The position numbers and the translations under genes are program-made. Under the pieces are notes generated by a model that was given only the letters and a program-made list of their open reading frames with translations, was not told the origin of the DNA and did no database searches. 40,187 nt of DNA, taken from positions 1 to 40,187 of the forward strand of contig NZ_JAJAFU010000022.1 of assembly GCF_020480685.1 (NCBI RefSeq), read 5' to 3'. The stretch comes from Deferrivibrio essentukiensis (GTDB taxonomy: Bacteria > Chrysiogenota > Deferribacteres > Deferribacterales > Deferrivibrionaceae). Positions 27,505 to 39,734 of this stretch are shown here, piece after piece; the stretch's first letter is position 1; every line of letters begins with the position of its first letter.

Positions 27505-28194
27505 TTAAAAAGATAAAACATATAAAATGATTACTTCAGAAAACTCAATACTTGCCCCAACTGTATCGCCTGTCCAACCACCAAAAGAATTATTAAATTG
27601 CCTAATCAATAACTTTGCCAAAATAAAGCTAATGATAGTTACAAAAAGATATTGTTTTAAATCTATAAAAATAAAAAGTGCAAAAGAGCTTAATAAAAGG
27701 ATAAACACATTTTCTCTAAATGAGTAGTCTTTAAAAAAATTACCTGTCCCTTCACTGCGAGCATATTTAGAATTTGAAATCACATACCCACCAATAAACC
27801 TCGAAAAAAACATCGAAGCAGGAATTATACCGGGATTTGCATTTTTAAAAATATTTATTTTAAGTATTAGTATTAATATCAAAGTAATTGCCCCCATTAC
27901 CCCAATCCTACTATCTTTCATTATCTCAAGTTTTTTCTCTTTGTCCCTATGGGAAAAAAGTGCATCAGCCGTATCAGCAACCCCATCTAAATGCAAAGCC
28001 CCTGTAAAAACTACTATGGTAATCAATGCAATAATTTCTTTTAAATAAATATCACTCATCAACAACAAATATGCAGGTAAACCCATTAAAAGTCCAACTA
28101 ACGGAAAATAGGCAGGCGCATTTTTATTATCATATTCTTTTAAATTAAGCCTAAATATTGTTAAAAATGAAATGGCAGTAAGAAATGATTTCAT
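27505..28194 (-). CDS. cobS: Adenosylcobinamide-GDP ribazoletransferase (cobalamin synthase)
   Basis: Last enzyme of nucleotide-loop assembly: joins alpha-ribazole (or its phosphate) to AdoCbi-GDP in the inner membrane. 229 residues, strongly hydrophobic. The family motif HLDGVADTADALFS is near 68-81, then SRIGVMGA and GGWTGDTVGA at the C-terminus. It overlaps cobT by 4 bp and is the last gene of the operon. No clear terminator follows. Confidence 0.95.
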   Translation of the reverse strand: MKSFLTAISFLTIFRLNLKEYDNKNAPAYFPLVGLLMGLPAYLLLMSDIYLKEIIALITIVVFTGALHLDGVADTADALFSHRDKEKKLEIMKDSRIGVMGAITLILILILKINIFKNANPGIIPASMFFSRFIGGYVISNSKYARSEGTGNFFKDYSFRENVFILLLSSFALFIFIDLKQYLFVTIISFILAKLLIRQFNNSFGGWTGDTVGASIEFSEVIILYVLSF

Positions 28195-29249
28195 TTTGGA
28201 ATACCGGCTTCCTCAAATGTGTACACGTTAGAAATTAAATTCGCTGCTTGCTTTATAATAGGAAATGCCAAAACTGCTCCTGTGCCTTCCCCTAGCCTCA
28301 TGTTTAAATTTAAAATTGGCTCAAGCGACAAATACTCAAGCATTTTTATATGCCCGGGCTCTTCTGAGCAATGCCCTGCAAACATATACTCCCTTACCAA
28401 CGGGTTTAGTTTATAGGCAATCAGTGCACCGGCAGTAGAAATAAACCCGTCTATAATAACGGGAATTTTACTATATGCTGCTGCTAATATTGTACCTGCA
28501 ATTGCACCGATTTCAGCTCCACCAACTTTTGCCAACACATCTATAGGGTCATCTGCATTAGGACTGTGTAAGTCAATCCCTTTTTTTATAATCTCAATCT
28601 TTTTTAATACACCTTCATTAGTTAAACCTGCTCCCTTTCCTGTCATATCTTCAACAGATACCCCTGTAATAACTGCACCAATGGCAGCCGAAGGGGTTGT
28701 ATTTCCTATACCCATTTCCCCTGTCAATACTATATTAAGTTGCTTTTCTTTGATATATTTAAGCGTAATTTCGATACCTGCCTCAATACATTCAATTGCC
28801 TGCTGTCTTGTCATTGCAGGCTCTTTAGCAAAATTTCTTGTCCCATTTACAACCTTTTTTGCTATAAATTCATTCTTTACATTTTGATTATTTTTAAACT
28901 CAAACTTAGAGCCTACATCAGTTAATATGATTTCCAGACCTTCCCTTTTGCCTAACACACTGACTGTTGCCATATCATTTAAAAAGGCATTAAACATTAA
29001 TCCTGTAACTTCTTGTGGAAATGGTGATACTCCCTCTTCTACTACTCCGTGGTCACCTGCCATTACAAAAACAGCTCCTTTTTTTATTTCAGGCTTCAAT
29101 GTTCCATAAATAGCACATAATCTTTCTGAAATATCGTGCAATCTCCCCATAGCTTTTGGAGGCATTAGGAGATTAGCAGTGCGATTTTCTGCCTTTGTCA
29201 TATATTCTTCAGAAGGTTTCTTAATATTTTTCAATATATCATTTAACAT
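28191..29249 (-). CDS. cobT: Nicotinate-nucleotide--dimethylbenzimidazole phosphoribosyltransferase
   Basis: Activates the lower-ligand base to alpha-ribotide for CobS. About 352 residues. [43 protein letters not shown] and the C-terminal [13 protein letters not shown] (catalytic Glu) are present. The frame has an earlier ATG at 29264, but the codons between encode AAGGAG 6 nt before the ATG at 29249, so the latter is chosen. It still overlaps the 3' end of the Cys-rich gene. Confidence 0.96.
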
Positions 29250-29496
29250 TGTCAGCTCCTTCATTTTTTACCTTTTCAAAATACTTTTTAATCCTGCTTA
29301 ATACAAAATCATAACTATTCTCATCATGATTTTTTGTGCAATTAGAGCAATCTTTATAACCATTTAATATCTTAAAGTCTCCACCGCAATCCTCAATGAG
29401 ATACAAAGGGCAAAAGCAAAAAAGACAGTTTTGGTTTTCTATTTTATGACACGGGTAGTACTCACAATCTTTATTGCTGAAAAATTTATAACTCAT
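29239..29496 (-). CDS. Cysteine-rich small protein of cobalamin clusters (PF04071-like)
   Basis: 85 residues with nine cysteines and two histidines arranged [22 protein letters not shown] and DCSNCTKNH. This pattern matches the 'cysteine-rich small domain' family (Pfam PF04071, from memory), whose genes sit next to cobalamin genes in many anaerobes. It probably binds a metal (zinc, cobalt or an iron-sulfur cluster); its function is not known. It lies between cobU and cobT inside the operon with an AGAGGAT SD. Confidence 0.88.
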
Positions 29497-29514
29497 AATA
29501 TCCTCTACGTAATA

Positions 29515-30015
29515 TTATTTTATGTATAAAGGGCACCCTGATACCATAAGTATTGCTTTATCACTAATAGATGCAATTTTTTGATTTACCATTCCCAATA
29601 AGTTAATATATTCTCTTGATAATTTATCCGCTGATATTAACCCTAAACCTACTTCATTTGAAATAAATGCCAGATTTTTAAACTTTGATATTTCAAGGTA
29701 TTTTACCAATCTACCAGTCTCTTTTGAAATCTCTTTTTTATAAAACATAAGATTATTTATCCACATAGTAATGCAGTCAACTAAAACAAATTCGTAAGTT
29801 TTAATCTTTTCCAAAGCCTGAACAATATCTAAAGGCTCTTCAATAGTTTTCCATTCACCTTTTCTCTCAGCCCTATGCAGTAAAATCTTTTTCTCCATCT
29901 CTTCATCAAATGATTCGGCAGTTGCTAAATATGCCTTATCTTTAAAACCACTTCCTAAGCTCAATCCAAAGGTTGTCTTTCCGCTTTTAATCCCACCTGT
30001 TATAAACGTAATCAT
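29515..30015 (-). CDS. cobU: Adenosylcobinamide kinase / adenosylcobinamide-phosphate guanylyltransferase
   Basis: Phosphorylates AdoCbi and converts AdoCbi-P to AdoCbi-GDP. 166 residues. P-loop GGIKSGKT (7-14), ATAESFDEEM, HRAER with His47 as the likely guanylylated residue, FISNEVGLG and the C-terminal NQKIASISDKAILMVSG segment. It overlaps cbiR by 29 bp, the longest overlap in the operon. Confidence 0.96.
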   Translation of the reverse strand: MITFITGGIKSGKTTFGLSLGSGFKDKAYLATAESFDEEMEKKILLHRAERKGEWKTIEEPLDIVQALEKIKTYEFVLVDCITMWINNLMFYKKEISKETGRLVKYLEISKFKNLAFISNEVGLGLISADKLSREYINLLGMVNQKIASISDKAILMVSGCPLYIK

Positions 30016-30706
30016 TTTCTCTAAAAAACTCCTTTAAATAATTAATTGAGTCAAAAAAATCCTTCTTACCAAAAATTTCGATAATTATATCAACGTCATT
30101 CTCACTTGCAAAATCAAATAGGTATTTCAAAAGTTTTTTGTCCAGATATCTAACCGAAAGATGATCTTTACCATCTTTAACACCATGTAAATGATAGGCT
30201 TTGATGGTGCTGCTATAAGTGTTAATAAATTCTTTAATATCAATCCCTTTTAATACAGCATGGCCTACATCAAAACAGATATCAGCACCTTTTGTTTTTA
30301 CCTTATCAAAGAAATGTACCTCATTAATATTTTCTACTAACGTAGCAGGAAATTTTGCCAAAAATTTTTCCAAATAATCAAAAAATATCTTATTATTTAC
30401 AGGATGTACAATTAATCGCTCAGGCTTTAAAAATGAAAGTTTTTCGGCAAAAAATATTAATCTATCCCAATCCCTTTCTTTTCCCAAATCTAAATCAATA
30501 GGCATATGGATATAATATTTTAATTCTTGCTTGGCTTCTATCAATTGCTCAATCTCTGTTTCATCCGGCAAATCATAATGATTAAAGCTGTCAAGATACA
30601 AAAGTTGCACAATATCAACCTTATTTTGTAAATATTTTACATTCACTACCCTGCTGTCGTGAATAATAAAAGATGTGGTGCCTATTGATTTAATCTCTTT
30701 CTTCAT
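29987..30706 (-). CDS. cbiR: Cobamide-remodelling phosphodiesterase CbiR (TIM barrel)
   Basis: 239 residues of the AP-endonuclease-2 / xylose-isomerase-like TIM-barrel family. It opens KSIGTTSFIIHDSRV, typical of CbiR. Putative metal ligands are H67 (IHMP), H101 (VHP), E125 (VEN), D146 and H149 (DVGH), H172 and H174 (YHLHG) and E210 (EIF). CbiR, described in Akkermansia, removes the lower nucleotide loop of cobamides so they can be rebuilt with another base (established from literature I recall). The start shares a base with the tonB stop, and the end overlaps cobU, whose substrate is the expected product AdoCbi-P. Generic sugar-phosphate isomerase is the alternative call; the context argues for CbiR. 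Confidence 0.85.
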   Translation of the reverse strand: MKKEIKSIGTTSFIIHDSRVVNVKYLQNKVDIVQLLYLDSFNHYDLPDETEIEQLIEAKQELKYYIHMPIDLDLGKERDWDRLIFFAEKLSFLKPERLIVHPVNNKIFFDYLEKFLAKFPATLVENINEVHFFDKVKTKGADICFDVGHAVLKGIDIKEFINTYSSTIKAYHLHGVKDGKDHLSVRYLDKKLLKYLFDFASENDVDIIIEIFGKKDFFDSINYLKEFFRENDYVYNRWD

Positions 30707-31464
30707 TATTGAAGCCTATATGAAATCTTTAATGGGAAACTTACTGTTTCAGGTGGAAGCTGCTCAAATGTAATTTTTTCCTGCATGTCCAATGTATTTT
30801 TATCAAGTATTTCATAACCTGAAGATTTCAGTATCTCTAATTTTTCCAGTTTACCTAATTTGCTAACCGTTATCATAACCTCAACATCACCTTCAATCCC
30901 CCTTCGTCTTGCTAGAAAAGGATATTCCAACCTTTCTTTAATTTTTGACAATATATATTTAGAATAGCTTTTTATATCAAATGCAGGCTCTAAATCATTA
31001 CTCTCTGCTACATCCTCTTGAGTAGCTACCTCGTTAAATTTACTTTCTACATTTTTAAGCACATTAGTTTTGGTTATAGTATACGTATAACCTTCTGTTG
31101 GTTTTGCAGAATTTGAAATATCTTTATTTATTGACTGTATCTTAACATCATTTACTTTTTTGATAGGAATATTGTCTTTATCGGGGATATCAGCAATTTT
31201 ATTTTTTATAAAAGGTTTAGGTCTAACCCTTTCTATTTTTTTGAGCGGCTGTTTTTCTATGTGTATATTTTTGTCTATTTTTTCTGTTTTAACATGATGT
31301 GGTGCAACTTGATTCTTTTTGGAAACTGTTAATATATCCAAGCTATATAATTTATGATTGTATAACTGCTTATCAAAACTCATATTTACCTTTAATGAAT
31401 AAAAAAGAATAGTATGAATTAAAACTGAAAAAATAAGAAAAAAATTAAATCTATTTTTTATCAA
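30706..31464 (-). CDS. tonB: TonB family energy-transducing protein
   Basis: 252 residues: an N-terminal membrane anchor (about 6-24), a long charged Lys/Pro-rich periplasmic linker, and a C-terminal TonB domain (about 165-252; YPFLARRRGIEGDVEVMITVSKLG ... LEILKSSGYEILD). It couples the proton-motive force to the outer-membrane receptor, here most likely BtuB of the same operon. The start is TTG with AGGAG 7 nt ahead, inside the 3' end of the ABC ATPase gene. No exbB or exbD is in the window. Confidence 0.9.
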   Translation of the reverse strand: MIKNRFNFFLIFSVLIHTILFYSLKVNMSFDKQLYNHKLYSLDILTVSKKNQVAPHHVKTEKIDKNIHIEKQPLKKIERVRPKPFIKNKIADIPDKDNIPIKKVNDVKIQSINKDISNSAKPTEGYTYTITKTNVLKNVESKFNEVATQEDVAESNDLEPAFDIKSYSKYILSKIKERLEYPFLARRRGIEGDVEVMITVSKLGKLEKLEILKSSGYEILDKNTLDMQEKITFEQLPPETVSFPLKISYRLQ

Positions 31465-32275
31465 TTTTAACTCCTAAAATACTCTTTAAAGCATTTTTTG
31501 AAGCCGGCAATACCATAGGCTTCTTTGATACTGGGTTTATATCTGTCACGATTACAGTTTGGTAAACTTCTTCAAGTATTTCATATGTAATAATTTTCTC
31601 AGGCTCACCCGACTTAAATATTGCTCCATTATTTAGTAAAATTAAGTCGCTGCAATATTCGGCAGCTAAGTTCAAATCGTGCAAGATACAGACAATTGTC
31701 AATCCCATATTTTCATTTAACTCTTGCAACAAATCTAATATTTTAATTTGATAATTTAAATCAAGATGTGCGGTAGGCTCGTCCAAAAACAAAATTTCAG
31801 GCTCCTGCGCTAAGGCTGAACATATAGCCACCACCTGCTGCAGCCCTCCACTCAATTCATACATATATTTATTTTCATAATGCAGAATATCAAATATTTT
31901 CATATACTTATATGCTATTTCCCTATCTTTCCCCGTTTCAAAGAGTTGGAAACTTTTAAAATGAGGAAGCCTTCCTGCAAGAATAAAGTCAATCACTTTT
32001 ATATCCTTATTCTCCACAAACTGACTTACATAAGCAATTTTTTTACTCCTCTGCTTTTGGTTATAAGAATAAAAATCCTTTTCATCTAAAAAAATGCTGC
32101 CACTAAAAGGTTTTAATATTCCTGTCATTGTCTTTAAAAGTGTAGATTTTCCTGAGCCATTTGGGCCTATAATTCCATAAAATTTTGATTTATAGATAGT
32201 TAAGTTTATCCCTTTTAAAGAAAACCCTTTTTCATATCCCGAAATTATATTTTCAAGCCTCAAGATTTCAGTCAT
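31451..32275 (-). CDS. btuD: Cobalamin/corrinoid ABC transporter ATP-binding protein
   Basis: 274 residues, the FecE/BtuD-type ATPase. Walker A GPNGSGKST (37-45), Q-loop YVSQF, signature LSGGLQQ (141-147), Walker B ILFLDEP (161-167) and H-loop His199. It overlaps btuC by 4 bp. The fold alone would also fit siderophore uptake; the riboswitch and gene set point to corrinoid. Confidence 0.92.
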   Translation of the reverse strand: MTEILRLENIISGYEKGFSLKGINLTIYKSKFYGIIGPNGSGKSTLLKTMTGILKPFSGSIFLDEKDFYSYNQKQRSKKIAYVSQFVENKDIKVIDFILAGRLPHFKSFQLFETGKDREIAYKYMKIFDILHYENKYMYELSGGLQQVVAICSALAQEPEILFLDEPTAHLDLNYQIKILDLLQELNENMGLTIVCILHDLNLAAEYCSDLILLNNGAIFKSGEPEKIITYEILEEVYQTVIVTDINPVSKKPMVLPASKNALKSILGVKIDKK

Positions 32276-33240
32276 GCCCTCTTCTCTTTTCTGAAAATAT
32301 AGATAAAAAATATTCCGCCAAGAATTCCGGTAACAACACCCACAGGCAACTCATTCGGATAAATTATTTTAGAAGCAATAAAATCTGAAAGCATCAAAAA
32401 TATTGCTCCACCTAAGAATGAGGCTATAAATAATATTCTAAAATCATTGTAAAACAATTTTCTCATTATATGAGGAATAATTAAACCTATAAATCCAATT
32501 ATCCCTGTAACAGACACAGATGCTGCCGTTAATAAAGAAGAGAGTATTACCGTTATTTTAATAACCTGCTCCACATTTACTCCTAAAGTAGCACCCTTTT
32601 CATAACCAAACTGTAAAGCATTTAATTTGTTTGCAAAAAAATAAAATATCAAAAGTCCAAAAAGTGTAATGCAGCCCAAAGCAATATTTAGATTATTTTG
32701 AGCATTACTGAGCGAGCCCATCATCCAAAAAATTATTCCATGTAAATTTTGTGTATTTGAAACAGCTAAAATCAACATTAAAATAGATGATGAGATAAAA
32801 CTTATCATAACACCGATTAGAAGTAATGTTTTTATATCCAACTTATAATTTTTTATTGCAATTACATAAAGTAGCAAAAGGACCAAAATTGCTCCTAAAA
32901 AACCGGCACTTATTAGTGAAAAAACGCCAAATATTTTATTTAATGATAGACTTAGGGCAACTGCAACACCAACCGCAGCACCACCAGAAACACCTAAAGT
33001 ATATGGTTCTACTAAACTATTACGAAAAACTCCCTGCAACGCAGCACCGCATATTGAAAGACTACCACCTGCAAGTATTGCTAACACAGCCCTAGGCAAC
33101 CTTAAATTTAATAAGATTGTTTTATCAATATCCGAAGATTTCTCAAACAGATGAAGCCCATACGTAATATTAAAATAAGCCATTATAATCAATATAAAAA
33201 AAAGAATAATTATCTTAATAAGCGCTCTCTTTTTAACCAT
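32272..33240 (-). CDS. btuC: Cobalamin/corrinoid ABC transporter permease (FecCD family)
   Basis: 322 residues with about nine to ten hydrophobic segments. NLRLPRAVLAILAGGSLSICGAALQGVFRNSLVEP (start about 46) and GFIGLIIPHIMR (near 242) are FecCD/BtuC hallmarks. It overlaps cbiB by 8 bp and btuD by 4 bp. Confidence 0.93.
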   Translation of the reverse strand: MVKKRALIKIIILFFILIIMAYFNITYGLHLFEKSSDIDKTILLNLRLPRAVLAILAGGSLSICGAALQGVFRNSLVEPYTLGVSGGAAVGVAVALSLSLNKIFGVFSLISAGFLGAILVLLLLYVIAIKNYKLDIKTLLLIGVMISFISSSILMLILAVSNTQNLHGIIFWMMGSLSNAQNNLNIALGCITLFGLLIFYFFANKLNALQFGYEKGATLGVNVEQVIKITVILSSLLTAASVSVTGIIGFIGLIIPHIMRKLFYNDFRILFIASFLGGAIFLMLSDFIASKIIYPNELPVGVVTGILGGIFFIYIFRKEKRA

Positions 33241-34171
33241 ATAAATTCAGCCTTAATGCAGTAATAATGATTACAAATAAAACGGTAACTTTCATATTTA
33301 TGTTGCATACATCAAGAATATCCTTTTTTAAAATAATTCTATCATTGTCACCAATAGTGCCTTTATCAATTTTTATATTGTTGTAATAGTTTACTCCGCC
33401 AAGCTGACAATTCAAAAAACCTGCAATTGCAGCTTCAGGATAACCTGAATTTGGACTTGTGTGAACTCGTGCAAACTTTTTAACACCTTTAAGCACATCA
33501 TCTTTCAAAGTAACAACGTATATCAATAAGGCAGTTAACCTTGCCGGGATAAAATTTAACAAGTCATCTATTTTTGCTGAAAAATATCCAAAATTTCTAT
33601 ATTTATCATTTTTATAACCGACTATAGAATCAAGGGTATTTACGGTTTTATATACATAAAGAAAATAAATTCCACCTAAGAAATAGTAAAACAAAGGTGC
33701 TATAACCCCATCACACAAATTTTCTGAGGTAGTTTCAATTACTGCCTTTCTTATCTGATTTTCATCAAACTGTTTTGTATCTCTACCCACAATAAAGCTT
33801 AACTCTTTCCTTGCAATTTCTATATCATTACTACTTAATTTGCTTTCAATACTTTTAGCTCGGGTTATCAACTCTTTATTTGAAATTCCAAAATACACAA
33901 GCAGCGATAAAATAAATATTCTGTAATATGTGGTTTCAAATATATTTATCACTAAATAAATTAAAACATATACTGCCAATATACAGCTAATAAAATAAAA
34001 TAGACCGTAAAGCTTCATTTTAGCAGAATTTTTGGTCTTCTTATAAAATATTTTTTCAAAAAATGTTGATATTTTACCTATCAATCTTATTGGGTGAAAT
34101 TTACTTTCAGGGTCACCAAAAACAAAATCCAAAAAAAATCCAATTATCAGAGGAAAAATAAAATCATTCAT
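33233..34171 (-). CDS. cbiB: Adenosylcobinamide-phosphate synthase
   Basis: 312 residues, inner-membrane enzyme that attaches aminopropanol phosphate to cobyric acid. FVFGDPESKFHPIRLIGK (about 15-32), VGRDTKQFDENQIRKAVIETTSENLCDGVIAPLFYY, NTLDSIVGYKNDKYRNFGYFSAKIDD and NSGYPEAAIAGFL are conserved CbiB segments. It overlaps cobD by 8 bp. Confidence 0.95.
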   Translation of the reverse strand: MNDFIFPLIIGFFLDFVFGDPESKFHPIRLIGKISTFFEKIFYKKTKNSAKMKLYGLFYFISCILAVYVLIYLVINIFETTYYRIFILSLLVYFGISNKELITRAKSIESKLSSNDIEIARKELSFIVGRDTKQFDENQIRKAVIETTSENLCDGVIAPLFYYFLGGIYFLYVYKTVNTLDSIVGYKNDKYRNFGYFSAKIDDLLNFIPARLTALLIYVVTLKDDVLKGVKKFARVHTSPNSGYPEAAIAGFLNCQLGGVNYYNNIKIDKGTIGDNDRIILKKDILDVCNINMKVTVLFVIIITALRLNLYG

Positions 34172-35168
34172 AGAATTTTCTCAATCCTTCAAGTAATATC
34201 AGATTATTATCCCTCATCAAGGTTGCAACCCGAAAATAATTTTCCGAAAGCCCTCTAAAATTAGAGGCATCTCTTATTAAAATTGAACAGTTTTCCGCTA
34301 AAAATCTTTTTAAAATTAATGATGCCACATTACTTTTACACAGGAAAAAATTTAACTCACTAAAATAAACTTCCACTCTTTTTATCTTAGAAATCTCACC
34401 CTGTAGCCATTTTGACTCATTTACTATCAATTCAAAATGTGGCTTCAATTCACTATAATTATCAATGATAAATTCACCTGCCAAAAGTGCAAGAGAGTTA
34501 ACACTCCAAGTATATTGAAGATTACATATTTTCCTTACAATATCTTTATTACCAACCAGATAACCTAATCTTAAGCCAGGTATTGCAAATACCTTAGTAA
34601 ATGATTTTAAAACAATTAAATTATTAAATTTATCAACATATTCTACCAAAGATATATCATTAAGCAAAAACTCAACATAAGCTTCATCTACAATGAAAAA
34701 TGTTTCTTTAAATTTATTTAAATAAAATATAATTTCTTCCCTTTCATAAAACTTACCATCAGGGTTATTCGGATTGCAAAGAAAAACCAAATCAACATCT
34801 CTTTCTAAATCGGATAAGCTATTAATAAATATTAATTTGTGATTATAACGCATAGCAGCTTCTTCATATTCTATAAATGTTGGGACTAAAATAGCTGTCT
34901 TTGCATTCTTAAATAACTCTGCTATCAAATATATCCCTTCTATTGAGCCGTTTAAGATAAAAATGTTATCCTGCAACACGTTTAAAAAACTTGATATTTT
35001 TTCTTTTAAGCGTCTGCTTTCAATATCGGGATAGTGCTCAAAAACATTTACATTTTCAGCTAAATAGCTTTTTAATTTGCTGTGCATACCGTAAGGGGAA
35101 ATATTTGTACTGAAATCATATTTAATATCCTCAAACTCAGAAATATTTCCGCCGTGCCCTTTTAACAT
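34164..35168 (-). CDS. cobD: Threonine-phosphate decarboxylase
   Basis: PLP enzyme of the histidinol-phosphate-aminotransferase fold that makes aminopropanol phosphate for CbiB. About 334 residues. GHGGNI at the N-terminus, YDFSTNISPYG, CNPNNPDGK (131-139), the VDEAYVEF strand and PLP-binding K192 in VLKSFTKVFAIPGLRLGY. The ATG at 35168 (MLKGHGGNI) is preferred over 35183, which has no SD. Pairing with cbiB and cobQ distinguishes it from HisC. Confidence 0.93.
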   Translation of the reverse strand: MLKGHGGNISEFEDIKYDFSTNISPYGMHSKLKSYLAENVNVFEHYPDIESRRLKEKISSFLNVLQDNIFILNGSIEGIYLIAELFKNAKTAILVPTFIEYEEAAMRYNHKLIFINSLSDLERDVDLVFLCNPNNPDGKFYEREEIIFYLNKFKETFFIVDEAYVEFLLNDISLVEYVDKFNNLIVLKSFTKVFAIPGLRLGYLVGNKDIVRKICNLQYTWSVNSLALLAGEFIIDNYSELKPHFELIVNESKWLQGEISKIKRVEVYFSELNFFLCKSNVASLILKRFLAENCSILIRDASNFRGLSENYFRVATLMRDNNLILLEGLRKFYE

Positions 35169-36631
35169 TTTCCACTCATACAATCATATATATAGTTTAT
35201 ATTAAGGGAGCTTCTCAAAATATCTGCCAATTTATCATACTGCCTATCTTTAAATGCGGCAAAGTCTTCTAAAGTTATCTCTTTTCTAATAATATCTCTC
35301 AATACAATACTGTTGTCGAAAATACCGTGAATATATGTACCAAAACACTTTTCATTCAATAGGAAGCCTTCAGCAGAACCATCTTCAAAAAAGTTTAGAG
35401 GGCTATTTTCAAAAAATGTTGTTTCCCCCATATGAATCTCATAACCTATACATTTTTCAGGATAATTTTTATATCTAAAACTTCGTTGTACCGTTTTTTT
35501 ATCTTTGGTCATCCTTGTAACTATTGGGAAAATACCTATACCATCAATCTCTTGAACATCACTTTCCACCCCATAAGGGTCGAATATTTTTCTTCCCAAA
35601 ATCTGAAAACCGCCACATATCCCTATCACACCTTTACCACTGTTAACATGTTTTTTAATTGCTCTATCAAAGCCTTTTCTTTTTAAATATAGCATATCAG
35701 AAATGGTGTTTTTGCTGCCTGGAACAATAATCAGATCTGCATCATCCAGCTCCTCAGGATTCTCCGCATAAAACAGATTTACATCATCGATACGCTCAAA
35801 TGGAGCAAAATCAGTAAAATTAGACATATGTTTCAACAGCACCACTGCTACTTTAAAAACTTTGCTTTTATCCGAATATCGTTTTTTACAATTTAAACTG
35901 TCCTCTTCATCAAGATAAATATCCCTAAAGTATGGTATTACACCAACAACAGGAACACCGGTTAACTGTTCAATAATTTTTTTACCATCTTCAAAAAGTG
36001 AAATGTCACCTCTAAATTTGTTTATTATAAAACCTTTGATTAATTTCCTATCTTCCTCTTTTAATAACTTATAATGTCCGTAAATATTCCCTATGACACC
36101 GCCTTTATCAATATCAGCAATTAAAAATACCGCAGCATTTGTAAACCTTGCCACAGGCATATTAACAATATCTTTTTCCCACAAATTCATTTCACTAATA
36201 CTGCCTGCACCCTCAATAAGTATCGGGAAATATTTATTTTGTAGATAGTAATAGGAATTTTTAACCTCTTGAAAAAAATTGTTTTTTAAATCATTACCAA
36301 AATAATCCTTAGCAGAAAAATTTCCTATAGGTTTGCCATTTAATACAATCTGACTCTCAGTATCCTTATTAGGCTTTAAAAGAATTGGATTCATCTGCAC
36401 TTCAGGCTCAACCTTGCAACTTTCTGCCTGCATTGCTTGAGCCCTGCCAATTTCAAGACCATCTTTTGTGACAAAACTGTTAAGTGCCATATTTTGAGCT
36501 TTAAATGGTGCCGGGTTAAAACCATCCTGTTTTAAAATTCTCCCAATACCTGCTACAATTATGCTTTTACCCACATCTGAGCCGGTGCCAACAAACATCA
36601 AAGGTCTACAGTTATTTTTTAGACCCTTCAT
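35162..36631 (-). CDS. cobQ: Cobyric acid synthase
   Basis: Amidates four carboxylates of adenosylcobyrinic acid diamide using glutamine. 489 residues. N-terminal dethiobiotin-synthetase-like domain MFVGTGSDVGKSIIVAGIGR (12-31) with FKAQNMALNSFVT, and a C-terminal glutaminase with nucleophile C339 (GVIGICGGFQILG) and H435 (GTYIHGIF). The ATG overlaps the btuF stop by 4 bp. It is the only late-ring amidase here; cobB/cbiA is absent from the window. Confidence 0.96.
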   Translation of the reverse strand: MKGLKNNCRPLMFVGTGSDVGKSIIVAGIGRILKQDGFNPAPFKAQNMALNSFVTKDGLEIGRAQAMQAESCKVEPEVQMNPILLKPNKDTESQIVLNGKPIGNFSAKDYFGNDLKNNFFQEVKNSYYYLQNKYFPILIEGAGSISEMNLWEKDIVNMPVARFTNAAVFLIADIDKGGVIGNIYGHYKLLKEEDRKLIKGFIINKFRGDISLFEDGKKIIEQLTGVPVVGVIPYFRDIYLDEEDSLNCKKRYSDKSKVFKVAVVLLKHMSNFTDFAPFERIDDVNLFYAENPEELDDADLIIVPGSKNTISDMLYLKRKGFDRAIKKHVNSGKGVIGICGGFQILGRKIFDPYGVESDVQEIDGIGIFPIVTRMTKDKKTVQRSFRYKNYPEKCIGYEIHMGETTFFENSPLNFFEDGSAEGFLLNEKCFGTYIHGIFDNSIVLRDIIRKEITLEDFAAFKDRQYDKLADILRSSLNINYIYDCMSGKC

Positions 36632-37464
36632 CTGTTTACAAGCTCGCCTAAATTTTCAATCAAATCAATCAAATCCGGTAAGTAAGGGCTACCAAGCCTA
36701 TCAGCATCTATGATAAATAGTTTATCTTTTTTTACCGCATTTACAAAATCGTATTTTTTAAAATCATCAATCACATCATTAGCAATTGCACCCATATCCA
36801 TTACAAATATTACATCAGGATTTTCTTTTAAAATAAACTCCTTTGAAATAATTCCCGAATTTAAATTTCCAGCAATATTTATTCCATCGATAAGGTTTAT
36901 TATATCATCTATATATGTATTTTTTGGTGCTGTAAAAAGTGGGTTAGCACCAATTAAAAAAACAACTTTCTTCTTATCGTTATGTAAAAATTTAGTTTTA
37001 ATCTTTTCTAATCTACTTTTTGACTCGTTTACAATTTTTTCAGCTTTCTGCACTTTACCTGTAATTTCCCCTAATCTTACTACCGATTGAAAAATATCAT
37101 CAATGCTTTTTGGGTATTCAAAAACTTCCACATTTACCTTCAAACTTTTAAGTTTCTCTATAGACTTTATGTTTGTCAAAGAATTTGCCATTACAATATC
37201 TGGTTTTAGTTGAAGAATAGCCTCTATATTAATTGCCGAAACTGAGCCTATCACTTTTGCATTTGTATCTTTTTTATGAGCCAAAGGGCAATAACTTGTG
37301 CACCCAACAATATTATTTTCAAGACCCATAGTTATTAATTGCTTTGTAATGGAAGGGGTCAGTGAAATTATTCTAATATCTTTTGCATAAACAGGTAAAT
37401 TTAGCAAAAATACAAAATTTAAGGCGACAATAAGCCGCCTTAAACATTTAGAAGTTATAAACAT
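36628..37464 (-). CDS. btuF: Periplasmic corrinoid-binding protein BtuF
   Basis: 278 residues with a Sec signal peptide (about 1-28, cut after VYA). The type III periplasmic binding fold shows RIISLTPSITKQLITMGLENNIVGCTSYC, LKPDIVMANSL, a long connecting helix and NPDVIFVMD. It delivers substrate to BtuCD, though the genes are separated by cobQ, cobD and cbiB. The start lies within the 3' end of btuB (17-bp overlap). Ligand specificity is inferred from the operon. Confidence 0.9.
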   Translation of the reverse strand: MFITSKCLRRLIVALNFVFLLNLPVYAKDIRIISLTPSITKQLITMGLENNIVGCTSYCPLAHKKDTNAKVIGSVSAINIEAILQLKPDIVMANSLTNIKSIEKLKSLKVNVEVFEYPKSIDDIFQSVVRLGEITGKVQKAEKIVNESKSRLEKIKTKFLHNDKKKVVFLIGANPLFTAPKNTYIDDIINLIDGINIAGNLNSGIISKEFILKENPDVIFVMDMGAIANDVIDDFKKYDFVNAVKKDKLFIIDADRLGSPYLPDLIDLIENLGELVNR

Positions 37465-39451
37465 ATTTTAAAGTTCCCTTATAATTTTTTTCGGGCATAG
37501 GGTAACCTTCCACATAGGAATAATCTTTATCAAACAAATTATTAACATCTAATTTTAAATATAGTTTACCTGCCACTTTAGAGTTAACCAATCTCTTACT
37601 CACGCTTAAATCACTTACAGTAAAAGAGCCCTTATATTTTCTTGTAGTTGTATAAGTTGCAGGGTCGTAATCATCTACTAATTGCTTGCCTGTATAAGTA
37701 AAATTTAGCCTACAGTAAAAATCATCAGGGTTATTAGTTATAAATATCCCGTAACTTGCTTGTAATCTTGATACATAAAGAAGTTTAACATCGTTAGTAT
37801 CATCATAAAATCTATCATAATAAACAAAATTTAGATATGGCTCAACAACTACAGGTAATTTAAATAATCCCCCTATATCAAACCTTGCATTACCTTCAAC
37901 CCCCCTAATAGTTGCTTTGCCACTATTTATCCAGGTTATGTAAGATGGTGTTGCAGAGACTGTTTCAGTTATTATTTTATCCTTATATTTTGTATAGAAA
38001 TATGTCAGATAGCCATTTAAAAGCATTGAGTTGTAATCAACTCCTACTTCATATGTCTTACTCGTTTCAGGGTCAAGGTCAGGATTACCTTTGTAAGGTG
38101 TACCCCATACAGAGAAATCTGCATTTAATTGGTCAGCTTGAGGGATAACATATGCTTCCCCATAACTTCCTCTTAAAGAAATCTTTTTTGAGAAATTATA
38201 TTTTACACCAAAAGATAATGTTGTAGGTTTCTTTTCTGTTTCCTCTGCCTTAACATCACTTCTTAAAGGAGTTTCTTTAATTTTCAAATTGTAAATATCA
38301 TACCTTAGCCCTGCAGTTACAATAAGTTTATTATTTAACAGCTTTAACTTAGGTAAAACGAATAACCCGAAGTCAGAATACTCACTGTCAGGATTATAAG
38401 GTGCAGTATTTTCCGAATTTCTGTTAATTGTTTCATAACTATTGTAATCAAAACCTGTAGTCAGCTCAATCAGTGCTCTTTTGTAAAAAAGATTACCCTG
38501 AATACCTTTAAATTCAGTTTTGTAATAATTTTCTGAATTTGAGCCCAAAAAATCATTCTTGTCAGGGTCGTGATACGTTTTTTCCTCTTTACCTTTAAAA
38601 ACTTTTAAATTCCAACTGATTTTTTCTCCATTTCTTGTGTAATCGAAATCATAGGATTCAAGCTTTTTATTTTGGTAGTCATCAAGATATAATGCTAAAT
38701 TATCAATAGTATATTGTTGTTTATTATTGTAGCCAATATCCCCTGAGTCAAATTTATTATAAACAAATCCAATTCTATCAACTTTATTAAAGGTATAGCC
38801 AAAATTTGCGGAAATACTTTTTTCACCGATATCTGTTTTCGGATATGTCCCCATATCGGTATCATAATCATCTCTATCCATACCTTTTAGTGCCAATGCA
38901 AAGTCAAAACCATTCTTTTTACCATTAGCCCCAACAGTAACACTTTTGTAATCAAAGCTGCCGAGTGACCCTTCTATAAAAAATTCACCCTTTTCTTTAC
39001 CTTGTTTCAATATAATATTTACTACACCACCCATTGCAGCAGAGCCATATTGAATACCTGCCGGCCCTCTTATAATCTCTATTTTTTGAACATTAGTCAT
39101 AGGTATTAGGGATAAATTGCCTGTCCCTGCCCTGCGACCATTGATTAAGACTAATACTTTACCTCTCAAATCTACTCCATGGGTATCTGTCCTAAAACCC
39201 CTAATGTCTATTGAAGTGGAAAGTCCGGGATAATCGTGAATATGCCCCATGTTTATCTGCTTTAAAAAGTCAGCAATATTTTCAGCATTGTATGTTTTAA
39301 GGTCTTCTTCCTCATAAACTAATACTTTTTGAGGAATCACTTCTTCTGTTTCACCTATTCTGTTACCAGTCACAACTATAGTTTCAACAGCATATACATT
39401 TATAGAAAAAACAAAAATTAACAAACTTATACAAAAATTTTTAAAAAACAC
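37448..39451 (-). CDS. btuB: TonB-dependent outer-membrane corrinoid receptor BtuB
   Basis: 667 residues from the GTG at 39451, which has GGAGG 5 nt ahead and gives a proper signal peptide (FFKNFCISLLIFVFSINVYA). An in-frame ATG at 39565 would lie inside the riboswitch P1 stem and is rejected. The mature start VETIVVTGNR is a TonB box. The plug domain (about 20-150) carries SIDIRGFRTD, VLVLINGRRAG and VQKIEIIRGPAGIQYGSAAMGGVVNIILK; then a 22-strand-type barrel ends GTLKYVYNF with terminal Phe. The operon and riboswitch make cobamide or cobinamide the expected ligand. Confidence 0.94.
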   Translation of the reverse strand: MFFKNFCISLLIFVFSINVYAVETIVVTGNRIGETEEVIPQKVLVYEEEDLKTYNAENIADFLKQINMGHIHDYPGLSTSIDIRGFRTDTHGVDLRGKVLVLINGRRAGTGNLSLIPMTNVQKIEIIRGPAGIQYGSAAMGGVVNIILKQGKEKGEFFIEGSLGSFDYKSVTVGANGKKNGFDFALALKGMDRDDYDTDMGTYPKTDIGEKSISANFGYTFNKVDRIGFVYNKFDSGDIGYNNKQQYTIDNLALYLDDYQNKKLESYDFDYTRNGEKISWNLKVFKGKEEKTYHDPDKNDFLGSNSENYYKTEFKGIQGNLFYKRALIELTTGFDYNSYETINRNSENTAPYNPDSEYSDFGLFVLPKLKLLNNKLIVTAGLRYDIYNLKIKETPLRSDVKAEETEKKPTTLSFGVKYNFSKKISLRGSYGEAYVIPQADQLNADFSVWGTPYKGNPDLDPETSKTYEVGVDYNSMLLNGYLTYFYTKYKDKIITETVSATPSYITWINSGKATIRGVEGNARFDIGGLFKLPVVVEPYLNFVYYDRFYDDTNDVKLLYVSRLQASYGIFITNNPDDFYCRLNFTYTGKQLVDDYDPATYTTTRKYKGSFTVSDLSVSKRLVNSKVAGKLYLKLDVNNLFDKDYSYVEGYPMPEKNYKGTLKYVYNF

Positions 39452-39512
39452 TTCAACCTCCAAAATTTTATAACATGTTAGAAATACATTAGAACAAGGT
39501 GGATTATTCGTA

Positions 39513-39533
39513 TCAAGTAAAAGGATAACACAT
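39513..39533 (-). CDS. Six-codon leader ORF after the cobalamin riboswitch
   Basis: ATG (39533-39531) followed by five codons and TGA, encoding MCYPFT. A strong SD, AAGGAGG, lies 5 nt ahead of the ATG. It begins about 30 nt after the aptamer and stops about 60 nt before the btuB GTG. Its SD sits in two alternative hairpins, described separately. Whether it is translated is unknown; a chance ORF is possible, but the SD is better than that of most genes here. Confidence 0.45.
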   Translation of the reverse strand: MCYPFT

Positions 39534-39557
39534 ACAGGCCTCCTTATCCACGTAAGG
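39522..39557 (-). promoter_or_regulatory. Mutually exclusive hairpins, probable riboswitch expression platform
   Basis: On the minus strand GGATAAGG (39549-39542) can pair in two ways. Its TAAGG part can pair upstream with CCTTA (39557-39553, six-base loop). Its GGATAA part can pair downstream with TTATCC (39528-39523), enclosing the SD GGAGG and the leader ATG. The two pairings share bases and cannot coexist. There is no U tract, so translational control is suggested. Confidence 0.5.
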
Positions 39558-39562
39558 TATTT

Positions 39563-39697
39563 CATAGGGGGTATCCTGGCTCACCTTCAACCTACTTGCC
39601 AGCCTTCCCACTATTAAAAGCAGTGGCTAATTTGGCTTTCGTCAGGCTCACAGTTGCGGGACAGCGCCGGATTTTCACCGGACTTCCCCACTCTATG
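39563..39697 (-). ncRNA. Cobalamin riboswitch aptamer
   Basis: On the minus strand the conserved AdoCbl core reads in order: GTGGGGAAG, TCCGGTGAAAATCCGGC (39684-39668 region), GCTGTCCCGCAACTGTGA, GCCTGACGAAAGCC, and the B12 box AGCCAGGATACC (39581-39570). P1 is formed by CATAG (39697-39693) and CTATG (39567-39563). It precedes btuB and the whole cob operon and is expected to reduce expression when cobalamin is plentiful. The predicted transcript starts within a few bases of P1. Confidence 0.97.
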
Positions 39698-39705
39698 ATT
39701 AGGCA

Positions 39706-39734
39706 ACATTAAACAACAAATAGAATTTTGTCAA
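39706..39734 (-). promoter_or_regulatory. Promoter of the cob/btu operon
   Basis: TTGACA (39734-39729), a 17-bp spacer and TAATGT (39711-39706). The start would fall near 39699, immediately before the riboswitch P1. The -35 lies inside a perfect 7-bp inverted repeat. Confidence 0.7.

Follow-up and report, generated by a model that had tools for sequence, protein, structure and literature searches.

A cobalamin riboswitch of the Deferribacterales seems to switch a tiny leader frame rather than the B12-uptake gene behind it

Riboswitch annotation takes the gene that follows the aptamer as the direct target. The locus from Deferrivibrio essentukiensis described here puts a six-codon open reading frame (ORF), with a Shine-Dalgarno sequence (SD) of its own, between a cobalamin aptamer and a btuB-like gene, and thus raises the question of which of the two the RNA controls. 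Comparison of sequences across the order leads us to the view that the B12-sensing RNA seems to switch translation of a tiny frame of 6–8 codons, not the B12-uptake gene, and that the tiny frame therefore probably acts as a relay passing the B12 signal to the downstream operon. The features on which the argument draws are given below; the window is the whole stretch of DNA that was analysed, 40,187 nt long.

39549–39726, minus strand: cobalamin riboswitch aptamer, RF00174, class-I-type (94.4 bits, E 2e-22, full-length match to model positions 1–189)
39658–39662, minus strand: aptamer L5 (GUCCC), the aptamer side of the kissing loop, assigned from sequence and from matching L5/L13 types across loci
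39570–39581, minus strand: B12 box AGCCAGGATACC, an 11/12 match to AGCCAGGAGACC
39553–39557, minus strand: P13 5' arm CCTTA, an anti-SD that pairs with TAAGG at 39546–39542
39547–39552, minus strand: L13 loop CGTGGA, whose GGA pairs with UCC of L5
39542–39546, minus strand: P13 3' arm TAAGG, overlapping the leader SD (sequence comparison)
39539–39545, minus strand: leader SD AAGGAGG, kept as AAGGAGG or AAGGGGG in class A loci
39523–39528, minus strand: TTATCC, 3' arm of a proposed alternative stem with GGATAA 39549–39544; not conserved and judged not functional
39513–39533, minus strand: leader ORF of six codons, ATG TGT TAT CCT TTT ACT TGA (MCYPFT), conserved in position, start and 6–8 codon length, not in sequence
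39452–39512, minus strand: spacer of 61 nt from the leader stop to the btuB start (C 0.17, G 0.10), without a terminator-like hairpin
39457–39461, minus strand: SD GGAGG of the btuB-like gene, outside the riboswitch structure (sequence)
37448–39451, minus strand: TonB-dependent receptor, btuB-like, with GTG start at 39451 and signal peptide (PF00593, PF07715)
28191–37464, minus strand: downstream B12 uptake/salvage operon, whose genes overlap or nearly abut

The covariance-model match in the window lies far above the gathering score (94.4 versus 31.5 bits) and is about equalled by the aptamers of two same-genus genomes (91–99 bits); a genome search found two RF00174 riboswitches in D. essentukiensis. 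As expected of a cobalamin riboswitch, the full-length match is accompanied by a B12 box and by an L5-L13 kissing loop to P13. The loop-loop pairing in the window is short, consisting either of UCC/GGA only or of five pairs including one G-U, and the isolated P13 hairpin folds with a predicted energy of -2.3 kcal/mol. Its CCTTA arm is invariant in the genus, and at least four pairs are kept in all class A loci of the order. No terminator follows the aptamer in the window, as the original prediction had it, the sole terminator-like site being upstream of the aptamer core. Intrinsic terminator-like hairpins with a U tract after the aptamer were likewise found in 0 of 62 leaders, and we rejected termination overlapping the leader ORF. 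We infer that the element is a cobalamin riboswitch with a translational OFF platform, ligand binding being predicted. At the 5' edge of the Rfam match (39734–39706, minus strand), where the outer model stem is poorly paired, TTGACA and a weak -10-like sequence may represent a promoter.

The layout behind the aptamer also agrees with what had been predicted: a strong SD (AAGGAGG, 39545–39539) precedes the ATG of MCYPFT at 39533 by five nucleotides, and the btuB start, placed about 60 nt further on with its own SD, is a GTG at 39451, 61 nt after the leader stop and preceded by GGAGG at 39461–39457. The ORF list had extended the btuB frame to an ATG at 39565 (705 aa); we rejected this version. 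Since the upstream extension is closed by stops in both same-genus relatives, translation probably begins at the GTG that precedes the signal peptide. We call the gene btuB-like because it matches the TonB-B12 model TIGR01779 at 150.9 bits, below the cut-off of 599.7. Behind it follow genes for a BtuF-like protein, cobyric acid synthase, a CobD-type decarboxylase, CbiB, BtuC-like and BtuD-like proteins, TonB, CbiR, two further ORFs and CobT; given these uptake and salvage functions, the riboswitch heads a long B12 operon. The presence in it of its own TonB gene and of the cobamide-remodelling phosphodiesterase CbiR (29987–31464, minus strand) suggests salvage and remodelling of foreign cobamides.

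Is the leader ORF a peculiarity of this genome? At least one cobalamin riboswitch is carried by 56 of the 60 relatives searched, and our sample comprised 120 riboswitches; 45 genomes of the order contributed 110 of them, and the other 10 came from a different class of the phylum. At 60 of the 110, spread over 40 of the 45 genomes, P13/L13 holds the SD of a short ORF, and a separate main gene with its own start follows; two further loci in the other class have the same design, and a few more, read by eye, share the layout with a slightly longer SD spacing (e.g. L101, L132). By comparison, any GGAGG plus start lies upstream in only 5 of 80 ordinary leaders, a control drawn from twenty 20-kb stretches. 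The leader SD, start and short frame thus recur more than chance would have it. A same-genus hit is a metagenome-assembled genome labelled Deferribacteraceae. In the two same-genus genomes the leader shows no difference between the B12 box and the end of the leader SD but diverges beyond; the ATG is nonetheless at the same place, with a stop after 6 or 7 codons (MSISVSL, MRCLFT). Some riboswitches of the order put the regulated SD directly at the main gene, so that the tiny ORF holds the position of the regulated cistron.

The loci fall into two classes. In the 17 loci of class A, which precede TonB receptors, cbiM and other genes, the arrangement is CCUUA[CGNGGA]UAAGG-AGG, and P13 buries part of the SD. 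In the 45 loci of class B, including the two outside the order, the SD lies inside the loop (CGGAGG[A/G]), and the main genes encode the anaerobic ribonucleotide reductase (nrdD), the small chain of ribonucleotide reductase (RNR) or lipoproteins. For P13 and a three-pair L5-L13 interaction in twelve distinct class B variants, related sequences that were aligned manually by joining short motifs, 92.9% of cells are paired and 13 show changes on both sides; none of 500 shuffles reached either value, and slid registers scored far lower. The loop types match in every case, GCCCCC with CGGAGGG, GUCCCC with CGGAGGA and GCCCCCC with CGGGAGG, one additional tabulated combination being a misassigned downstream SD. 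Class A offers a compensatory change in genome G034, where L5 GUCGC and L13 GCCGA replace GUCCC and GGA. We infer from this covariation that the conserved OFF structure is the upstream hairpin P13 (CCUUA/UAAGG) together with the L5-L13 kissing loop. RNR small-chain genes (L094 and related loci), and elsewhere nrdD, stand under these riboswitches, which is consistent with repression of B12-independent reductases when B12 is available.

A further line of evidence comes from the frame itself. Among 46 leader ORFs, deduplicated only at 75% identity and hence still phylogenetically related, none has a stop within the first five codons, where shuffles predict 12.9 and the other frames contain 9 and 15; a length of 6–8 codons is found for 28 of them, versus 6 and 6 in the other frames. 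The bias is marked in class A, where 14 of 16 ORFs have 6–8 codons (p=0.0003 for no more than eight, by shuffling). Class B lengths are broad (6–46 codons), so that selection on length is clear there only as a minimum. No sequence relationship links the leader peptides, and GTG replaces ATG as the start in some; across the order, conservation is one of position, start and length. We found no conserved peptide in class A, and a similar one of 18–19 aa in a few closely related loci only (L075b, L100b, L102b, L117b, L126b), where a lipoprotein/RCC1-repeat gene is preceded by ORFs of 18–19 codons (MKSxTYHxF...) whose peptide may itself be conserved. Most simply, selection would act on translation of a minimal frame and not on the peptide. 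With unrelated peptides and no terminators, the leaders do not resemble leader-peptide attenuators of the trp/his type.

The design appears to be specific to these cobalamin riboswitches. The TPP riboswitches of the order lack the leader ORF design: most have a terminator immediately ahead of the gene, and others act on the gene directly. About 95 cobalamin riboswitches of other phyla either carry terminators or target the gene start itself. Among these, a handful of seeming exceptions look like chance or direct starts, and the apparent tiny ORFs of one control phylum were rejected as they are located just before or at the direct gene start. One family of a control phylum (L274–L292) has, after the B12 box, a conserved hairpin (GGTGGAGGCTCTxCGC...GCGxAGAG) between an SD-like sequence and the gene start, apparently a different expression platform.

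The position of the leader SD in the P13/L13 hairpin that kisses L5, together with the order-wide conservation of the ORF in place, start and length, makes the original proposal that the direct target of the switch is the leader ORF, and not btuB, well supported by comparative evidence. We consider it fairly probable that the cobalamin riboswitch acts as a translational OFF switch on a minimal upstream ORF (uORF), its regulated cistron, which serves as relay, most likely via Rho. With B12 bound, aptamer L5 would kiss L13 and lock P13, so that part of the leader SD is buried (in class B, L13 itself contains the SD). With B12 absent, the weak P13 would open and ribosomes would translate MCYPFT, as selection on frame and length suggests; the act of translation, rather than the peptide, would then permit expression of btuB and the operon. 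The relay is most likely transcriptional: an untranslated, G-poor leader would let Rho terminate before the operon, and ribosomes on the leader ORF would prevent this. In some lineages it may instead, or also, be translational, with ribosomes either reinitiating near the start of the main gene or melting a hairpin that covers its SD.

Rho-dependent termination is our best guess for the relay. A rho gene is present, and the operon of about ten genes would be silenced as a unit by transcriptional control. The spacers are G-poor (C 0.19/G 0.09 versus 0.16/0.18 in the 80 ordinary leaders of the order), with C at least 1.8 times G in 45 of 60 spacers versus 7 of 80 ordinary leaders. A spacing-based scan for regularly spaced rut-like motifs gave no significant enrichment (8/48 versus 7/80, p=0.26), and the depletion of G has other explanations, since an unstructured spacer, for example, would suit reinitiation. 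Against a Rho relay, a six-codon ORF shields little RNA from the factor. Riboswitches that keep P13/L13 without a recognisable leader ORF also speak against the reading. They comprise the cbiK leaders of one family (L047, L062, L073, L085, L088, L091, L099, L108, L114), in which the platform is kept as CTTTACGAGGATAGAG or a close variant, no leader SD and short ORF are recognisable and several continue into C-rich sequence; the relay ORF may have been lost in this form.

The most serious alternative is translational coupling, in which ribosomes finishing the leader ORF reinitiate at btuB or open its start and transcription termination plays no part. It has a precedent in ppe2 of M. tuberculosis (PMC11260477), and G-poor, weakly structured spacers would suit scanning ribosomes. 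For the leaders of two genomes (L045 in G006 and L061 in G013), as well as for some nrdD leaders, it is the better reading: in the former pair a 15-codon ORF, located around +60 to +122 relative to the B12 box, stops 10 nt short of a TonB-receptor start that has no recognisable SD and looks translationally coupled, and in nrdD leaders L063, L086, L109 and L115 ORFs of 36–46 codons overlap the nrdD start out of frame. Some nrdD leaders also have a CCTCC/GGAGG hairpin that could cover the main SD near the end of the ORF or, as in these four, inside it. As a general account, however, coupling seems rather unlikely to us, given the 61-nt gap in the window, a btuB gene with its own strong SD, and gaps elsewhere of up to 130–300 nt. 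Nor is a main-SD hairpin opened by leader translation a general feature, accessibility being 0.30 versus 0.28 with shuffled upstream sequence (p=0.95), so that the main SD is no more buried than by chance.

Other readings dispense with the leader ORF or with its P13 control. Ribosome loading at the leader SD might stabilise the mRNA, in the manner of SD-based stabilisers, or provide a standby site toward btuB, the short ORF being incidental; AAGGAGG is the best-conserved element after the aptamer, and initiation in S. meliloti metA occurs 74 nt downstream of the riboswitch SD that drives it (PMC9373788). SD binding alone, however, needs neither the start codons, kept even through ATG/GTG exchange, nor the stop-free minimum of six codons, and we regard this reading as improbable. 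That the leader SD and AUG are a functionless relic, left when an indel moved a formerly controlled gene away, would fit the variable peptides and the loci whose main gene carries an SD of this kind directly at its start, but the relic would have to persist in 40 genomes and before genes as unrelated as those for TonB receptors, nrdD, cbiM and the RNR small chain; the covarying P13/L13 and the non-random ORF length also speak against it and make it very unlikely. Equally hard to credit is the switch of the original prediction, in which GGATAA has two alternative partners, CCTTA and TTATCC, and the hairpin formed with TTATCC closes over the leader SD and AUG as the OFF state. Its upstream pairing, CCTTA/TAAGG (39557–39553/39546–39542), is conserved; the downstream one has six complementary bases in the window (-3.4 kcal/mol) and is only partly kept, being absent in one same-genus relative (G001) and dependent on G-U wobbles in the other. 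At 56 loci, downstream sequence offers the leader SD region no better pairing than shuffled sequence does (mean z +0.46, none with p<0.05). In the comparison with related genomes, which had been proposed as a check, the ORF and the P13 stem are kept but not the alternative stem. It had also been noted that AGGTTGAAG of the btuB SD region is repeated inside the aptamer. The copy is present, at 39593–39585, one base from the predicted 39594–39586, but is not kept in the two same-genus relatives (GGAGGATAATG, GGAGGTTATTG) and looks compatible with chance in a leader of such size.

Returning to the minimal ORF as relay, we think it reasonably likely that a phylum-wide module exists in which the riboswitch controls a dedicated ORF of 6–8 codons selected for length and not for sequence, ribosome passage rather than a product signalling to a distant gene or operon, and that this module spread to, or was kept at, several unrelated B12-related genes. 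If so, B12 control of uptake genes and of alternative ribonucleotide reductases would, in a whole order, pass through reading frames so short that gene finders do not call them. The leaders would also form a natural series, varied in length and spacing, in which to study how so short a translated ORF controls events 50–300 nt downstream.

We found no paper on riboswitch uORFs in this phylum in the open-access literature; the closest known systems are from elsewhere. In S. meliloti metA, the SD of a SAM-II riboswitch is needed for expression starting 74 nt downstream (PMC9373788), which resembles the present case in having an SD inside the riboswitch and an expression start at a distance; metA has an in-frame second AUG and an intrinsic terminator, whereas the short ORF here is independent and closed by a stop, and a further SD follows. 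The pe20 Mbox of M. tuberculosis controls a uORF through a translational platform, and transcription ends prematurely in its leader in a Rho-dependent way (PMC12810186). The likeness lies in a translational riboswitch platform acting on a small upstream ORF; ligand and aptamer differ, and the pe20 uORF is a conserved small protein, whereas the peptides here lack conservation, which leaves the act of translation as the only thing open to selection. In the ppe2 cobalamin riboswitch, which together with pe20 is the closest precedent, an L13-containing hairpin masks the SD of uPPE2, the uORF that ppe2 expression is reported to need (PMC11260477), and here too a B12 riboswitch has the SD of a short uORF within the hairpin that contains the L5 partner, L13. 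The ppe2 uORF, however, overlaps the gene start (AUGA) for termination-reinitiation, an arrangement that the 61-nt gap of the window does not share; overlap or proximity of about 10 nt is confined to a few loci of the order, and leader ORFs here are mostly separated from the main start by tens to hundreds of nucleotides and, unlike that of ppe2, often minimal in length. The ppe2 aptamer is also of an atypical class II type from a single lineage, in contrast to the order-wide occurrence at several genes described here. If our reading is true, the two cases recently described from M. tuberculosis would be no isolated curiosities, and relays of this kind would exist in distant phyla. With the canonical class I riboswitch of the E. 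coli btuB type, for which the role of the L5-L13 kissing loop is cited in PMC9600662 and PMC10653944, the present element shares aptamer, B12 box, P13/L13 and kissing-loop logic; the sequestered SD would here belong to a tiny relay ORF instead of the regulated gene.
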